IMG/VR virus record: IMGVR_UViG_3300037204_000004
Location: 1 to 21,868 of that record
Length of the DNA stretch: 21,868 nucleotides
Reading direction: 5' to 3' (one strand)
From: a virus
Shown: positions 3,464 through 19,741 of the stretch, piece after piece
How the letters are laid out: each line of letters opens with the position of its first letter
Position numbering within the stretch: position 1 is the stretch's first letter
Notes under the pieces: model-generated
The model's input: the letters and a program-made list of their open reading frames with translations, nothing else
Database searches by the model: none
Told to the model about the DNA's origin: nothing
Made by a program: the position numbers and the translations under genes

Positions 3464-6099
<2,636 letters not shown>

Positions 6100-11862: not shown

Positions 11863-13626
11863 ATGGCCACGATCCCAGCAAGTCTTTTCAATGAGGTGAC
11901 GCCGAGCGTCATCGCCGCCGGCGGCAACGAACTCTCCATCACCGGGCTGGTGCTGTCGACGAGCTACCGCGTGCCGATCGGCAGCGTGCTGTCCTTCCCT
12001 TCCGCGGCAGCGGTCTCCAGCTACTTCGGCCCGGCCTCGAAGGAGGCGGCGGTCGCCGGCGGTGGCACCGGCCTTGGCGGTGGCTACTTCGCTGGATTCA
12101 CGAACGCCGACGCGCTGCCAGGTGCGCTGCTGTTCGCGCAGTACCCGCTGGCCGCGGTGTCGGCGTGGCTCCAAGGCGGCGACATCTCGGCGCTGCCGCT
12201 CTCGACCATGCAGAGCTACAGCGGCCAGCTGAGTGTCGTCATCGATGGCGTGGCGCACGCTGCGAGCATCAACCTCTCGGCCGCGGTCTCGTTCTCGAGC
12301 GCGGCACAGATCATCCAGAACTCGCTCGGTATCACCGGCGTCCAGACGGCCGCGTTCACTGGCAGCATCGCCGGCGGCACGCTGACGGTCACGGGCGTGA
12401 CCTCGGGTACCATCGGCGTCGGGAATGCCGTCAACGGCACCGGGGTCTCGGTCGGCACCTACGTCACCGGCCAGATCAGCGGCGCGACCGGCGGCACCGG
12501 CGCCTACAGCGTGACCGTGAACCAGACGGCGCTGAGCGCGCCGATGACCGCGGCCAACGCCGCCGTGCAGTACGACCCGATAAGTGGGTCCTTCTTCATC
12601 TTCTCGGGCACCACCGGCGCGAGCTCGACGATCGCGTACGCGACCGGTCCCATGGCCGCGAACCTGCTGCTGACGCAGGGCCTGGGCGCGGTGACTTCGC
12701 AGGGCGCGGCCGCGGCGACGCCGAACACCTTTATGCAGGGCATCGTCGCCGTGACCACGAACTGGGTCTGCTACATGACCGCGTTCGACCCGGACGGCGG
12801 CAACGGCAACACGCAAAAGCAGGCGTTCGCCGCCTGGAAGAATTCGGTCCCCAACCGCTACATGTACGTCTGCTGGGACACCGACATCACGCCGACGGAG
12901 TCGGTGCCGGCGCAGTCGTCCTTGGGCTTCATCCTTGCGAACAATTCGGACTCGGGCACGTTCCTGGTCTACGAGCCGACCGACCTCAACTACGCGGCCT
13001 TCGTCATGGGGCTCGCGGCCTCCATCGACTTCTCGGAGACGAACGGCCACACCACATTTGCGTACAAGGGCCAGGCCGGACTCGTGCCGAGCGTGGTCAA
13101 TGCGACCGCGGCCGTGAACCTCGGCGGCAACCCGCAGATCTCCGGCAGCTTTGGCAACGGCTACAACTACTACGGGGCCGTGGCCGACGCGACGCAGTCC
13201 TTTCAGTGGCTGCAGCGCGGCACCGTCACCGGTCCCTACACCTGGTCCGACACCTACATCGAGCAAATCTGGCTCAACGCGAACTTCCAGAATGCGATCG
13301 ACAACCTGCAGAACAGCGCGAAGTCGATCCCCTACAACACCTCGGGCTCGGCGCTGATCGAGGCGGCACTGGCCGCGCCGATCCAGGCCGGTCTCAACTT
13401 CGGCGCCTTCGGCCCCGGGGTGCTGTCCCCGACCCAGATCCAACAGGTCAACTCGCAGGCCGGTGCTAGCATCGCCGGCACGTTGCAAAGCCAGGGCTAC
13501 TACCTCCAGATCAAGCCCGCTGCCGCCGCGACCCGCAACGCGCGCACGAGCCCGCCTTGTACATTTTGGTATGTCGTGGAGGGTTCGGTGCAGAGCTTGA
13601 ATTTGGCTTCGATCGCGCTGCTGTAG
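11863..13626 (+). CDS. contractile tail sheath protein (DUF3383 family)
   Basis: 587 residues; ATG 11863 with GGGAG upstream. The N-terminus (ASLFNEVTPSVIAAGGNELS), the middle (VTTNWVCYMTAFDPDGGNGN, KNSVPNRYMYVCWDTD) and the C-terminal NARTSPPCTFWYV...SLNLASIALL match the DUF3383 family, the sheath of a major group of myophages. It polymerises around the tube and contracts to drive injection. Residues 165-228 are the beta module (FTGSIAGGTLTVTGVTSGTI to GTGAYSVTVNQTALS) shared with two neck proteins, probably exposed on the outside of the sheath. The last 70 bases drop from about 72% to 52% GC next to the homing endonuclease gene, so this end has probably been replaced. The reading frame is intact. 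Confidence 0.88.
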   Translation: MATIPASLFNEVTPSVIAAGGNELSITGLVLSTSYRVPIGSVLSFPSAAAVSSYFGPASKEAAVAGGGTGLGGGYFAGFTNADALPGALLFAQYPLAAVSAWLQGGDISALPLSTMQSYSGQLSVVIDGVAHAASINLSAAVSFSSAAQIIQNSLGITGVQTAAFTGSIAGGTLTVTGVTSGTIGVGNAVNGTGVSVGTYVTGQISGATGGTGAYSVTVNQTALSAPMTAANAAVQYDPISGSFFIFSGTTGASSTIAYATGPMAANLLLTQGLGAVTSQGAAAATPNTFMQGIVAVTTNWVCYMTAFDPDGGNGNTQKQAFAAWKNSVPNRYMYVCWDTDITPTESVPAQSSLGFILANNSDSGTFLVYEPTDLNYAAFVMGLAASIDFSETNGHTTFAYKGQAGLVPSVVNATAAVNLGGNPQISGSFGNGYNYYGAVADATQSFQWLQRGTVTGPYTWSDTYIEQIWLNANFQNAIDNLQNSAKSIPYNTSGSALIEAALAAPIQAGLNFGAFGPGVLSPTQIQQVNSQAGASIAGTLQSQGYYLQIKPAAAATRNARTSPPCTFWYVVEGSVQSLNLASIALL

Positions 13627-14850: not shown

Positions 14851-15081
14851 ATGGACGTGAGCATTCTCGAAAAGACGCCGTGTCCTCGATGCGGCGATGG
14901 CCACAATTTGTGGGCATGCTCTTACGTGAAAGCGATCGAAATGGACGCGGCCGACACGGGCCTGCGCGTCGAGTTCGTGAGCCTGGCCGATTTCACCAAG
15001 GTGCAAAAAGAGGATGGTGCGACGCCATCCCCTCAGGGTATTGATTACCCGAAGCTGAGGGCGGTGAAGGATGACGGATAG
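14851..15081 (+). CDS. small zinc-knuckle-like protein, function unknown
   Basis: 76 residues, ATG 14851. The N-terminus has C11-x2-C14-x3-H18-x4-C23 (CPRCGDGHNLWACSYV), close to a CCHC zinc knuckle but one residue shorter between the second Cys and His. The rest (LRVEFVSLADF, TKVQKEDG) is mixed alpha/beta with an acidic end. It lies between the tube gene and the tail assembly chaperone and overlaps the chaperone start by 11 bases, so it is probably translated with it. A role in tail assembly or RNA binding is possible but unproven. An in-frame start at 14644 was rejected because it runs inside the tube gene. Confidence 0.68.
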   Translation: MDVSILEKTPCPRCGDGHNLWACSYVKAIEMDAADTGLRVEFVSLADFTKVQKEDGATPSPQGIDYPKLRAVKDDG

Positions 15082-15628
15082 ACCAATCCCGGAGCCAAAG
15101 CGCGCGGTCGTAACCGTCCCCGAGTCCTGGGGTGGCCGCGACGCCGGCAGCGTGTTCGAGATCACAGAGATGAACGTCTACAAGGCCGAGAAGTGGGCGG
15201 TCGCGATGACGTTCGCGCTCAAGGGCACGTCGGCGCAAATTCCGGAGATCGATTACCCACTCGGCGCGGTCGGGGTGATGGTCCGCGGCGTCAACGCGTT
15301 CTTGGCGGCCGACGTCGACGTCGATGTGGTCTGGCCGCTGTGGGAGCAGCTGCTGACGTGCGTGAGGATCATCCGCAACCCGGAGCCGGACAAGACGACC
15401 GGGCGCCCGGTGGCCCACGAGCTCCTGCCGAACGACATCTGGGAAGTGAAGACCCTGCTGTGGCTGAGGCAGGAGGTCCTCAGCCTTCACGTGGGTTTTT
15501 CCATCCTGGACGCCTTGTCCGTGTGGATCTCGGCGATACTTCGGCACCCGGCATCAAAGAGTATCCCAACGTCCCCGCCCTCATCGGTTACGTCGTCTCC
15601 AGCGGACGAGCAACCCTCGCCGAGCTGA
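15071..15628 (+). CDS. tail assembly chaperone, short form
   Basis: 185 residues from ATG 15071, overlapping the previous gene. It begins EPKRAVVTVPESWGGRDAGS and contains a hydrophobic helical core (WAVAMTFALKG, GVMVRGVNAFLAA, VVWPLWEQLLTCVRII). Its position between tube and tape measure is that of the chaperone pair (lambda gpG/gpGT) in tailed phages. The last 42 residues after the slippery site are Ser/Pro-rich (SKSIPTSPPSS) and look like read-out of a non-selected frame, as expected of the terminated product. The short form would act as the abundant partner coating the tape measure. A -1 shift at 15493-15499 gives the longer form. Confidence 0.8.
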   Translation: MTDRPIPEPKRAVVTVPESWGGRDAGSVFEITEMNVYKAEKWAVAMTFALKGTSAQIPEIDYPLGAVGVMVRGVNAFLAADVDVDVVWPLWEQLLTCVRIIRNPEPDKTTGRPVAHELLPNDIWEVKTLLWLRQEVLSLHVGFSILDALSVWISAILRHPASKSIPTSPPSSVTSSPADEQPSPS

Positions 15629-15732
15629 AGTCGGTCTACGGGCTCGAGGACCTGTGGGACCTGATCGAGGTGGTGATGATCGACGCGCACAACGCGCGGG
15701 CCGTCGCCAAGCATGAGGCGAAAGACAAGTGA
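15071..15732 (+). CDS. tail assembly chaperone, -1 frameshift fusion form
   Basis: Residues 1-143 are as in the short form, up to GGT-TTT. A -1 slip then continues as TTC CAT CCT (FHPGRLVRVDLG) into a 77-codon extension ending at 15732, 220 residues in total. The extension (GIKEYPNVPALIGYV, ATLAELKSVYGLEDLWDLIE) is a compact helical domain without a start or ribosome site of its own, which is the arrangement of gpT-type extensions that contact the tube protein. Family knowledge: in many tailed phages the ratio of short to fused form controls tail assembly. The stop overlaps the next gene's GTG. Confidence 0.85.
15462..15499 (+). promoter_or_regulatory. programmed -1 frameshift signal: hairpin plus G_GGT_TTT
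   Basis: The heptamer GGGTTTT at 15493-15499 is read G_GGT_TTT in the chaperone frame, a canonical XXXYYYZ slippery sequence; both tRNAs can re-pair after a one-base slip. Seven bases upstream ends a perfect 8-bp inverted repeat, GGCTGAGG (15462-15469) and CCTCAGCC (15478-15485), with loop CAGGAGGT containing the Shine-Dalgarno-like AGGAGG (15471-15476). The spacing from AGGAGG to the site is longer than the usual stimulatory distance, so its effect is uncertain. I see no convincing downstream hairpin. Confidence 0.8.
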
Positions 15733-16076
15733 GGCTGACAGAGCTCGAGCCGCAGTTTCTGCGCTACGACAAAAGGGAAGACGGAATCTTCTACTGCCCC
15801 GTCGAGCGCATCGAGGACGCGCAGGGGATCGAGTTTTTATGTCCGAAGTGCTTCGCGGCGAACAACGGCAACGTCGGCACCCATGCCGTGATTTGTTGGT
15901 CGCGCTCGCGCGGCGTTCCCGATGATGCCAAGCCCGGTCCCGGGCGTTGGTCGCTGCACGGGACCGACTATACCAATCTGACGCTGAATGCTGACCCGCC
16001 CGGCACCGCGCGATCGGTCGCGCTGAGCGGCGGTTGCGCGTGGCATGGGCACCTCACAAACGGCGAGGTGACGTGA
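15729..16076 (+). CDS. DUF6527-like zinc-binding protein
   Basis: 115 residues from GTG 15729, overlapping the chaperone fusion stop; its own stop overlaps the tape measure start. Conserved-looking features are LEPQFLRYDKRED at the start, GIEFLCPKCF (C38, C41), HAVICW (H52, C56), a WSLHGTDYTNLTLNAD segment and GGCAWHGHLTNGEV at the end (C103, H106). Together they suggest one zinc-stabilised beta-rich domain. I recognise the pattern from phage proteins of the DUF6527 type and from their place beside the tape measure; no function is established to my knowledge. A tail-assembly accessory role is inferred only from position. Confidence 0.68.
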   Translation: MRLTELEPQFLRYDKREDGIFYCPVERIEDAQGIEFLCPKCFAANNGNVGTHAVICWSRSRGVPDDAKPGPGRWSLHGTDYTNLTLNADPPGTARSVALSGGCAWHGHLTNGEVT

Positions 16077-17689
16077 TGCCGACGGTCCTTGACAGCTTCA
16101 CCATCGAACTAGGATTGGATCCGCGCCAGTTCACCGAGGGCGAGCGCGACGCCATGGCCGCCTTCAAGAAGACCCAGGAGGCGGCACTCGCATACGGCAA
16201 GGACGTCGAGATGCACGCCGGGCGCCTGGCCGACCTCTTTAGCGTGGCCAAGGCCGGTGCCATCGGTCTCGTCGGCGCGTTCGCCGGCGGCGAGATCGCC
16301 GGCTTCATCAACAACGTCGCAAACATGGACGCGACCACCGGGCGCTTGGCGCACAGCCTCGGCCAGAGCACCGAGAACCTCTCGAAGTGGGAGGGGATGG
16401 TGCGGATGGTCGGCGGCAGCGCCGGCGACGCCCAGCGCGTATTCGCCGGCGTGACCGACGCGATCAACAACTACATGGCCACCACCGGATTGCCGCCACC
16501 GGCGCTGATCTCGCTGTTTAACCGGACGGGCGTCGGCATGAATCAGTTCATGCAGAACCCGAACGCGGCCTGGGACAAGATCTCGGCGTTCGCGTCTGGG
16601 GAGAACCAACGCCAGCCCGGTATGGGCAGGTGGTGGCTGCAGCAGATCCCCGGCATGACCGAGGCGTTCATGAACCTGCTGCTGCAGGGCCCCGAGCGCA
16701 TGCGCCAGATGCGTGAGGAGATCAGCCGCTTAGGCTTCGCGACCGAGATGTCGGCGGACGAGATGATCGACTTCCAGGCCAAGTCCGCGGGCCTGAACGT
16801 GGCCCTCGAGAACCTGGCGCGGCGCACGTTCCCGGCGCTGATCTTCCTCACCAACGAGCTGGCCAAGGCCGTCGACGGCATCTCGGCGATGTTCGGCAAC
16901 AACGACAAGAACGTCGCGAACCTGAAAAAGGGTGAACTCGGCAAGGCGCTCTGGGGCGATGACATGTGGAACTACATCCACCAGCCGGGCGCGAACTTCA
17001 GCGGCGTGTGGGATCTGCTGCGCGGGCGCAAGCCCGGGGGCGCGGCCGGGACACCGGGCGCCGGCGGCACGCTTGGCGCCAACGAGCGCAACTTCCTGGC
17101 CGGACTCTCCTTCCTCGAGACCGACCACCGCAACGTCGGCAACGCGTCGAGCTCGGCTCAGGGCTTTTTCCAGTTCCTCTCGGGGACCGCGCAGAAGGCG
17201 ACGGGCGCCGGGCTGCCGGACCCGCGCGCCGGCACCTGGGCGCAGCAGGCCGACGCGACGATGCAGTTCATCAAGAAATTCTATCCGCAGGCCGCCGACG
17301 CGATCGACAAGGGCGATTTTGTCACGGCGACGATGATCCTGCGCGGGGAGTGGCCGAGCCTGCCCGGCGGCGCCCAGTCGCAATCGCGGTCGCGCTACGA
17401 GACCTGGGCCGACGTGGTCCACGGTAGCGGCCCGCGGCCGCCAGGCGAAGGCGGTTCGTTCGAGGATCGCTGGGGCGGAATCGCGCCAGGCGCCGGAGCC
17501 GCAGCCCGCGGCCAGATCAACAACTCGACGCAGACCAACCAGCACCAGAGCAGCACCGACATCTCGATCGGCGACGTGACGATCGTAACGCAGGCCAAGG
17601 ACTCGGACGGAATCTTCCGCGACGCGGCCTCGGGCCTACGCAAGAACCTGGCCGCGGCGATGAACTACAACAACTCGATGACGGGGTGA
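16076..17689 (+). CDS. tail tape measure protein with muramidase-like domain
   Basis: 537 residues from ATG 16076 (TGATG overlap); the in-frame start at 16034 was rejected as it lies in the previous gene. The N-terminal 330 residues are largely helical (FTEGERDAMAAFKKTQEAAL) with a Gly/Ala hydrophobic stretch near residues 60-80 (AGAIGLVGAFAGGEIAGF). Residues about 335-435 resemble a lysozyme or transglycosylase fold: FLAGLSFLETDH with candidate acid Glu348, then SSAQGFFQFLSGTAQKATGA and an Ala-rich helix. The C-terminus (NSTQTNQHQSSTDISIGDVT then LRKNLAAAMNYN) is the tip-binding end often seen in such proteins. The tape sets tail length; 537 residues imply a fairly short tail. The enzyme domain may open peptidoglycan during entry. 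Confidence 0.82.
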   Translation: MPTVLDSFTIELGLDPRQFTEGERDAMAAFKKTQEAALAYGKDVEMHAGRLADLFSVAKAGAIGLVGAFAGGEIAGFINNVANMDATTGRLAHSLGQSTENLSKWEGMVRMVGGSAGDAQRVFAGVTDAINNYMATTGLPPPALISLFNRTGVGMNQFMQNPNAAWDKISAFASGENQRQPGMGRWWLQQIPGMTEAFMNLLLQGPERMRQMREEISRLGFATEMSADEMIDFQAKSAGLNVALENLARRTFPALIFLTNELAKAVDGISAMFGNNDKNVANLKKGELGKALWGDDMWNYIHQPGANFSGVWDLLRGRKPGGAAGTPGAGGTLGANERNFLAGLSFLETDHRNVGNASSSAQGFFQFLSGTAQKATGAGLPDPRAGTWAQQADATMQFIKKFYPQAADAIDKGDFVTATMILRGEWPSLPGGAQSQSRSRYETWADVVHGSGPRPPGEGGSFEDRWGGIAPGAGAAARGQINNSTQTNQHQSSTDISIGDVTIVTQAKDSDGIFRDAASGLRKNLAAAMNYNNSMTG

Positions 17690-18634: not shown

Positions 18635-19741
18635 ATGGTCACCGTCTTCGTCAACAAGGCACCGGAGACCCCGACAGACAACGGCCAATTCCAGCCGCAG
18701 CAGAGCTTCGTGCAGCGGCTGCTCAACTTCCAGATCACGCTCGACAGCAATCCGGCCACGGCCCAGCCGACCCAGTTCGACACGACCACGGGCAGTAACA
18801 CGGTGCTGCTGTCTGGCTTTCGCGCGAGCGTGCGCGTGACCAACAGCGGGGCCCGGGCCGGGTGCATGGCCGAGGTCGTGATCTATGGGCTGCCGCAGAA
18901 CCTGATGAACCAGCTGGCCACGCTGGGCATGGGCTTCAACCTGGTCCAGAAGAACCAGATCACGATCTTCGCCGGGAGCTCGAACACGTTCACGGCCGGG
19001 CTACCGGCGGTGCCGGGGTCGATGGCTGACCCCGGCGCCCAGTCGCTGCAGGGCTTCTCCCCGATCTTCAACGGAACGATCTACTTCGCACTGCCCGACT
19101 ACAATCAGCAGCCGAACGTCCCCATTCGGATCATGGCCTCGTCGCCAGGCATCAACGCGATCGCGCCGGCGACGCCCGCGAGCTTTCCCGGGTCGACCAA
19201 CGTCGCCACGGCGATGGCCGGCTTCGCGAAGCTGATGAACGTGGGCTTCGAGAACAACAACATCAACGTCACGCTGGCGCCCTCCTATTACCCTGGAACG
19301 GTGTACCAGCAGATGCGCAAGCTGGCGAAGGACGCGCACGTCAACGCGGAGCTGGTGTCGGGCGCGCAGGCCGGTAGCGGCGGCGGCAACGGCGCTACCG
19401 GCGAGGTCCTTGCCATCTGGCCGATCGGCGGCTCACGCACGAGTCTGAACGGGGGCGGTCCGCTGCCGCTGATCGGCCCGACGTCGGGGTTGATCGGCTA
19501 CCCGTCGTTCGCCAACAACGGTTGGGTCATCGTCAAGATGCTCTTCAACCCGCTGGTCGGCCTCGGCAGCCAGTTCACGGTCCAGAGCAGCATCCCGCAA
19601 GTCAACAACAAGACGCTGGTGGTCTACAACCTCGGTCTGATGTTGGAGTCGCTCGAGCCGAAGGGGAAGTGGGAAGGGACAGCGCACTGCTATCCCCTGG
19701 GGCTGCCGGCACCGGCCGTGCCGCAGGCCAGCGCGGGATAA
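18635..19741 (+). CDS. baseplate hub protein
   Basis: 368 residues; ATG 18635 immediately follows the plug stop. The N-terminus is Gln-rich, then comes a beta-rich segment (LLSGFRASVRVTNSGARAGC, AEVVIYGLPQNLMNQLATLG) with the pattern of T4 gp27/Mu gp44-type hubs, in which the MNQLATLG helix follows the first barrel. Later parts (PIFNGTIYFALPDYNQQPNV, VYQQMRKLAKDAHVNAELVS, NNKTLVVYNLGLMLESLEPK) complete a two-barrel trimeric ring that holds the spike. No lysozyme motif is seen here; that activity seems to reside in the tape measure. Assignment relies on fold pattern and neighbours. Confidence 0.75.
   Translation: MVTVFVNKAPETPTDNGQFQPQQSFVQRLLNFQITLDSNPATAQPTQFDTTTGSNTVLLSGFRASVRVTNSGARAGCMAEVVIYGLPQNLMNQLATLGMGFNLVQKNQITIFAGSSNTFTAGLPAVPGSMADPGAQSLQGFSPIFNGTIYFALPDYNQQPNVPIRIMASSPGINAIAPATPASFPGSTNVATAMAGFAKLMNVGFENNNINVTLAPSYYPGTVYQQMRKLAKDAHVNAELVSGAQAGSGGGNGATGEVLAIWPIGGSRTSLNGGGPLPLIGPTSGLIGYPSFANNGWVIVKMLFNPLVGLGSQFTVQSSIPQVNNKTLVVYNLGLMLESLEPKGKWEGTAHCYPLGLPAPAVPQASAG

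Follow-up and report, generated by a model that had tools for sequence, protein, structure and literature searches.

A conserved distant Shine-Dalgarno-like element, displayed on some lineages in a hairpin loop, upstream of a predicted frameshift site in phage tail assembly chaperone genes

Frameshifts in the tail-chaperone genes of phages are common, and little is known about the determinants of their ratio beyond the slippery heptamer. The -1 frameshift of the lambda gpG/gpGT-type tail assembly chaperone was described by Xu, Hendrix and Duda 2004 and is reviewed in PMC5009743. In the -1 frameshift of E. coli dnaX (PMC5009743), an internal Shine-Dalgarno (SD) sequence is located 10 nt upstream of the heptamer. 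Such sequences stimulate -1 shifting (PMC5009743), at spacings that are given as 9-14 nt in the same review and more widely as 6-17 nt elsewhere (PMC4066793). Upstream attenuators, which were studied in the SARS-CoV element (PMC3639245) and in a test with 70S ribosomes (PMC6321510), are stable hairpins located immediately 5' of the slip site, which have to refold behind the ribosome. With 70S ribosomes, a stable hairpin upstream was found to attenuate -1 shifting to a similar degree as a close SD duplex (PMC6321510), and in eukaryotic systems the attenuation drops by about half as the spacer is extended from 2 to 5 nt (PMC3639245). Finally, the 5' stem-loop of T4 gene 60 has been proposed to start closing from its loop end (PMC5009743).

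In distinction to lambda gpG/gpGT, the locus investigated in this study belongs to a contractile-tail family (phrog_1932/phrog_3976), it contains a small ORF between the frameshift extension and the tape measure gene, and it shows a conserved upstream SD-like element that on some lineages is carried by a hairpin. It is part of a window, by which we denote the whole stretch of 21,868 nucleotides that was analysed, and its genes and slippery site are the following:

11863..13626, plus strand: tail sheath gene (contractile tail); phrog_205, 9e-61
15071..15628, plus strand: ORF1, tail assembly chaperone, 0-frame product of 185 aa; phrog_1932, E 3e-22, homologues annotated as tail assembly chaperone
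15493..15499, plus strand: slippery heptamer G_GGT_TTT; from sequence and frame, canonical heptamer at the same codon in 90/107
15493..15732, plus strand: ORF2, C-terminal domain of the fusion, -1 frame; phrog_3976, E 2e-19
16034..17689, plus strand: tape measure protein gene; phrog_9570 and phrog_2276

The chaperone genes sit between the genes for the sheath and the tape measure protein, which is the position known from the G/GT type, and the ORF separating the extension from the tape measure gene in the window encodes 115 aa. A similar gene order is found in annotated relatives in Pantoea, Pseudomonas, Aeromonas and Acinetobacter phages. In the records OQ847583.1 (L002), NC_054466.1 (L005) and NC_019527.1 (L006), the extension either appears as a hypothetical protein of its own or is left unannotated, and the fusion product is missing.

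At the slip site, the 0 frame reads GTG GGT TTT TCC and the -1 frame GGG TTT TTC CAT, and the heptamer between the two ORFs is in frame and of the canonical X_XXY_YYZ form found in shifts of the G/GT type. A -1 slip would connect 141 residues of ORF1 to 79 of ORF2, resulting in the 220-residue fusion that had been proposed in a preliminary description of the sequence and whose coordinates, frames and length we were able to reproduce. Equally in line with the G/GT type, the chaperone ORF is overlapped by a -1 extension ORF with no start of its own at the junction. In relatives, which were retrieved with small ORF2 alignments, the sheath protein and peptide-derived DNA patterns, ORF2 is located in the -1 frame in each of the 168 sequences screened (107/107 of a first set including the window and 61/61 later loci). 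The -1 frame past the slip site is open for at least 35 codons in 124/124 sequences and reads from the heptamer directly into ORF2 in the first eight relatives, and the homology of ORF1 to relatives mostly ends at the slip codon. Since ORF2 resides in the -1 frame throughout and a canonical heptamer occupies the same codon as in the window in 90 of the 107 first-set sequences, the assignment to the G/GT type is well supported, and it appears nearly certain, as judged from sequence, that the event is a programmed -1 frameshift in the tail assembly chaperone gene of a contractile-tailed phage. Gene identity, frames and heptamer are directly evident, and it is the frameshifting itself that we infer from them; a frameshift of this kind is already known. 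The other 17 first-set sequences (L010, L011, L022, L056, L057, L066, L072 and others) have no canonical heptamer and still contain ORF2 in the -1 frame. Most of these contain either GAT TTT TCC or GGT TTT together with a T run, a pattern suggestive of single-tRNA slipping on TTT.

Three further features are located upstream of the heptamer:

15462..15469, plus strand: hairpin 5' arm GGCTGAGG; recurs in L129, L139, L140 (partly) and L157, with a compensatory change in L090
15471..15476, plus strand: internal Shine-Dalgarno-like AGGAGG, 16 nt before the heptamer; anti-SD pairing above synonymous nulls across the family
15478..15485, plus strand: hairpin 3' arm CCTCAGCC; same basis as the 5' arm

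The presence of an internal SD upstream of the heptamer is shared with dnaX, whereas its gap of 16 nt exceeds the 10 nt found there, as the preliminary description had noted. This gap is larger than the 9-14 nt of dnaX-type spacing and lies at the edge of the 6-17 nt range, which encompasses 36/50 members of the GGGTTT class, mostly at its outer edge. In many family members, the upstream Glu-Val codons give rise to GAGGT or AGGAGGT. When anti-SD pairing energies at each position were compared with synonymous nulls, positions -25 to -18 relative to the TTT codon were found to pair 2.2 kcal/mol more strongly in 91 non-redundant sequences under a locus codon-usage null (t = -6.3), and a similar Glu-Glu-Val site at -57, which serves as internal control, showed no significant excess under the same null. 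With a stricter null, where synonymous codons were permuted within each ORF1, the SD site retained t = -4.7 and no other position reached below t = -1.7. The signal originates mainly from the GGGTTT class (t = -4.8), it is weaker in the TTTTTTN class, where the SD is 3 nt further away (t = -2.3), and it recurs out of sample in 33 later-found sequences (t = -2.6). When all 124 non-redundant sequences are taken together, pairing exceeds that of synonymous permutations by 1.5 kcal/mol (t = -5.4), in a test which, as those for the hairpin described below, treats sequences as independent irrespective of their relatedness. By this measure the SD is kept at the RNA level across the family beyond amino-acid need, as expected for a dnaX-type shift, which answers in the affirmative the earlier question of whether the AGGAGG of the loop would be conserved in this way, and we consider the element very probably functional. 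The long spacing and the residual excess in the TTTTTTN class would also be compatible with a role in general pausing or nascent chaperone folding only, with no relation to frameshifting, a reading that we regard as unlikely in light of an excess that is found at one fixed position before the slip site and that is strongest in the GGGTTT class, with a spacing inside the published 6-17 nt. With -10.5 kcal/mol, the SD of the window is as strong as an initiation SD, and in annotated relatives a portion of ORF2 is listed as a gene of its own, both of which would be in line with translation of ORF2 starting internally from this SD as its ribosome-binding site. Against this highly improbable account, conservation of the open -1 frame extends back as far as the slip codon, and since an ATG, GTG or TTG in the -1 frame 4-16 nt after the SD is found in 0/62 SD-bearing sequences, the element would not act as the initiation site of ORF2.

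In the window, the SD is displayed by a hairpin (GGCTGAGG, loop CAGGAGGT, CCTCAGCC) with a perfect 8-bp stem and an 8-nt loop, which is separated from the heptamer by a 7-nt spacer and whose dimensions and coordinates agree with the preliminary description. Its predicted RNA fold has an energy of -15.2 kcal/mol (z = -2.8) and contains an additional pair, C15470-G15476, inside the loop, which is thereby narrowed to AGGAG. When ORF1 was permuted synonymously 20,000 times, an 8-bp stem and loop of 3-12 nt arose within the 57 nt upstream in 2.7% of cases, and in 2.0% with GAGG also located in the loop. The whole 21.9-kb window contains only four distinct hairpins of such strength, and the other three perfect 8-bp hairpins with loops of up to 12 nt are found at 2827-2852, 4446-4471 and 19012-19036. 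We rejected an operator or other DNA repeat, as no second copy of the inverted repeat is found in the window with up to three mismatches allowed, and equally discarded was the inverted repeat 15387-15403/15505-15521, whose 5' arm is lost in L090. In a larger predicted fold (15441-15502), AAGACCC upstream of the hairpin pairs with the slippery GGGUUUU, and free mRNA may thus hide the slip site. Across the family, the region from -51 to +5 is modestly more structured than synonymous permutations (t = -3.6). For dnaX, we know of no SD-bearing upstream hairpin.

The recurrence of this hairpin is illustrated by the closest relative found (L090, 72% identity in ORF1), where the equivalent structure (GGCTCAGG, loop CAGGAGGT, CCTGAGCC) differs from that of the window in one stem pair: G-C has been replaced by C-G through synonymous changes in two Leu codons (CTG to CTC in one, CTC to CTG in the other). 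With a peptide-derived pattern that left the variable stem bases free, we found L129 (stem GGCTCAGG/CCTGAGCC), L139 (GGCTGAGG/CCTCAGCT) and L140 (partial stem), and a later ORF2-based search added L157 (GGCTGAGG, loop GGGGAGGT, CCTCAGCT). In 6/6 hairpin members the SD resides within the loop, and the two variable Leu codons end in matching bases, with G opposite C in four members and C opposite G in two. Each of them encodes Arg by AGG, a triplet with a share of about 5% among the Arg codons of the window, L090 and L129. SD-enclosing stems of at least 7 bp number 3 compared to 0.42 expected in 90 first-set relatives (P = 0.007) and 4 compared to 0.12 expected in the W-L-R subset, whose membership was set by the retrieval pattern, with the window excluded in both cases. 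No structure excess was detected outside the W-L-R subset (P = 0.77) or inside it after removal of the hairpin members (P = 0.56). In the GGGTTT class, stems of at least 7 bp are restricted to 4/50 sequences, and just one stem pair varies on both sides, a covariation that is matched by 44/500 shuffles. A protein tree places the hairpin members on three lineages (the window with L090; L129; L139 with L157 and L140), and the hairpin has either arisen more than once or was lost often.

Conservation of the hairpin throughout the family was rejected, as most relatives have no such stem, and this also holds for the majority of those with GGGTTTT. The preliminary description, which had proposed to look for conserved stem pairing and had taken free loss of stem and loop in relatives retaining GGGTTTT as evidence against the idea, was borne out in part: the hairpin, present in six sequences, exceeds chance and shows a compensatory change in L090, but is not family-wide, and relatives with GGGTTTT have mostly lost the stem, whereas the SD of the loop is not lost freely. 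Compared to an attenuator, for which a stable 5' hairpin with retained pairing would be expected, the structure is stable and recurrent and shows one compensatory pair, and it is absent in most of the relatives, with few sequences to judge from. Relative to synonymous permutations the recurrence of the hairpin is non-random, and we find it rather likely that it is under selection at the RNA level in the lineages that carry it. A functional frameshift and SD might also be accompanied by a hairpin that is a mere coincidence of codons, with Leu-Arg(AGG) and Leu-Ser(AGC) around a conserved Glu-Val being self-complementary without selection for pairing. The absence of the stem in most of the family, the 2% of permutations in which the gene's own codons yield such a hairpin and the single covarying pair are in line with this possibility, which we nevertheless consider doubtful in view of the excess over synonymous permutations in relatives with the window excluded, the presence of the infrequent AGG in all hairpin members and the match of both Leu third positions in each of them.

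Downstream of the slip site, the family shows excess structure in a 36-nt stretch starting 6 nt past the slip (t = -4.6; t = -2.8 in the set found later), relative to a null that is imperfect since this stretch is read in two frames. A position 6 nt after the slip is the textbook place for downstream structure. No such excess was detected in the window (p = 0.8), L090, L129 and L139. Unlike dnaX, the window has no significant downstream hairpin, for which a position 5-8 nt after the heptamer would be expected in the dnaX type, and the family-wide excess starting at 6 nt falls in this two-frame stretch. The preliminary description had pointed out that an upstream hairpin carrying the SD departs from the textbook arrangement with an SD upstream and structure downstream. 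A trade-off between the upstream hairpin and downstream structure was rejected, as both showed no correlation. The 0-frame tail past the slip (15500-15628 in the window, and GGGTTT-class relatives) contains a sequence Ser-x-Ala-x-Ala-Leu-Ser-x-Leu, which looks partly conserved. The stretch after the slip may thus be coding in two frames, which would confound tests of downstream RNA structure.

In the mechanism that we propose, most ribosomes would synthesize the 185-aa chaperone and a minority would slip from GGT-TTT to GGG-TTT to produce the 220-aa fusion. The passage of the ribosome would open the hairpin and liberate the SD, which would be available for pairing while the P site is still a few codons upstream and which, from its position 16 nt upstream, would interact with the anti-SD of the elongating ribosome, with a pause or tension at the slip site as the most likely consequence. 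An SD hybrid was reported to remain intact over 5-7 nt of further translation before it ruptures (PMC5009743). With GGT in the P site, the last base of the stem is located 9 nt and the last G of the SD 18 nt upstream, and from known ribosome geometry the 3' arm should thus still be inside the ribosome. At this stage, the stem may start to re-form from its loop end at the mRNA exit, which resembles the 5' stem-loop of T4 gene 60 in that pairing can begin there with the recoding codon in the P site, although the latter underlies a long bypass and not a single -1 slip. The hairpin would most likely be a modulator of the SD-assisted slip, either as timer or as attenuator, because the re-forming stem would compete with the SD:anti-SD hybrid and resist backward movement. 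It shares with upstream attenuators the stable structure just 5' of the slip site that refolds behind the ribosome, and it differs by its spacer of 7 nt instead of the 2-4 nt of strong attenuators, by the SD in its loop and by an effect that is predicted only. The preliminary description had suggested that the hairpin could tune the ratio or block sliding of the ribosome. Attenuation is plausible from published work and predicted to be weak at a 7-nt spacer (PMC3639245). The attenuation observed on 70S ribosomes together with the spacing data lead us to read the SD as an element of pausing or tension and the hairpin as a competing modulator, which would probably lower or time the shift. Whether the hairpin modulates frameshifting we see as an even chance, and to the explanation as a whole, an SD-assisted -1 shift with the hairpin as modulator where present, we assign a probability of about 0.55. 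We are more skeptical of an extended version, a rather unlikely co-translational switch, in which the SD stored in the loop would be opened and pair with 16S rRNA and the hairpin would re-form to break this pairing a set number of codons later, thereby timing the tension on the mRNA and fixing the ratio of products, and which would have arisen or been kept on three lineages of a family that otherwise relies on a bare SD at unusually long spacing.

A literature search that covered few subscription papers found no description of a hairpin that carries an SD and precedes a bacterial slip site, and the new part of our findings is a distant SD that is conserved and on some lineages displayed in a hairpin loop. 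If an SD acts at 16 nt throughout the family, the range of spacings for such elements in -1 frameshifting would be widened. The SD-carrying hairpin would unite in one natural element two upstream regulators that are known separately from experiments with 70S ribosomes, and in this element the competition between SD and hairpin would be testable by synonymous changes alone.
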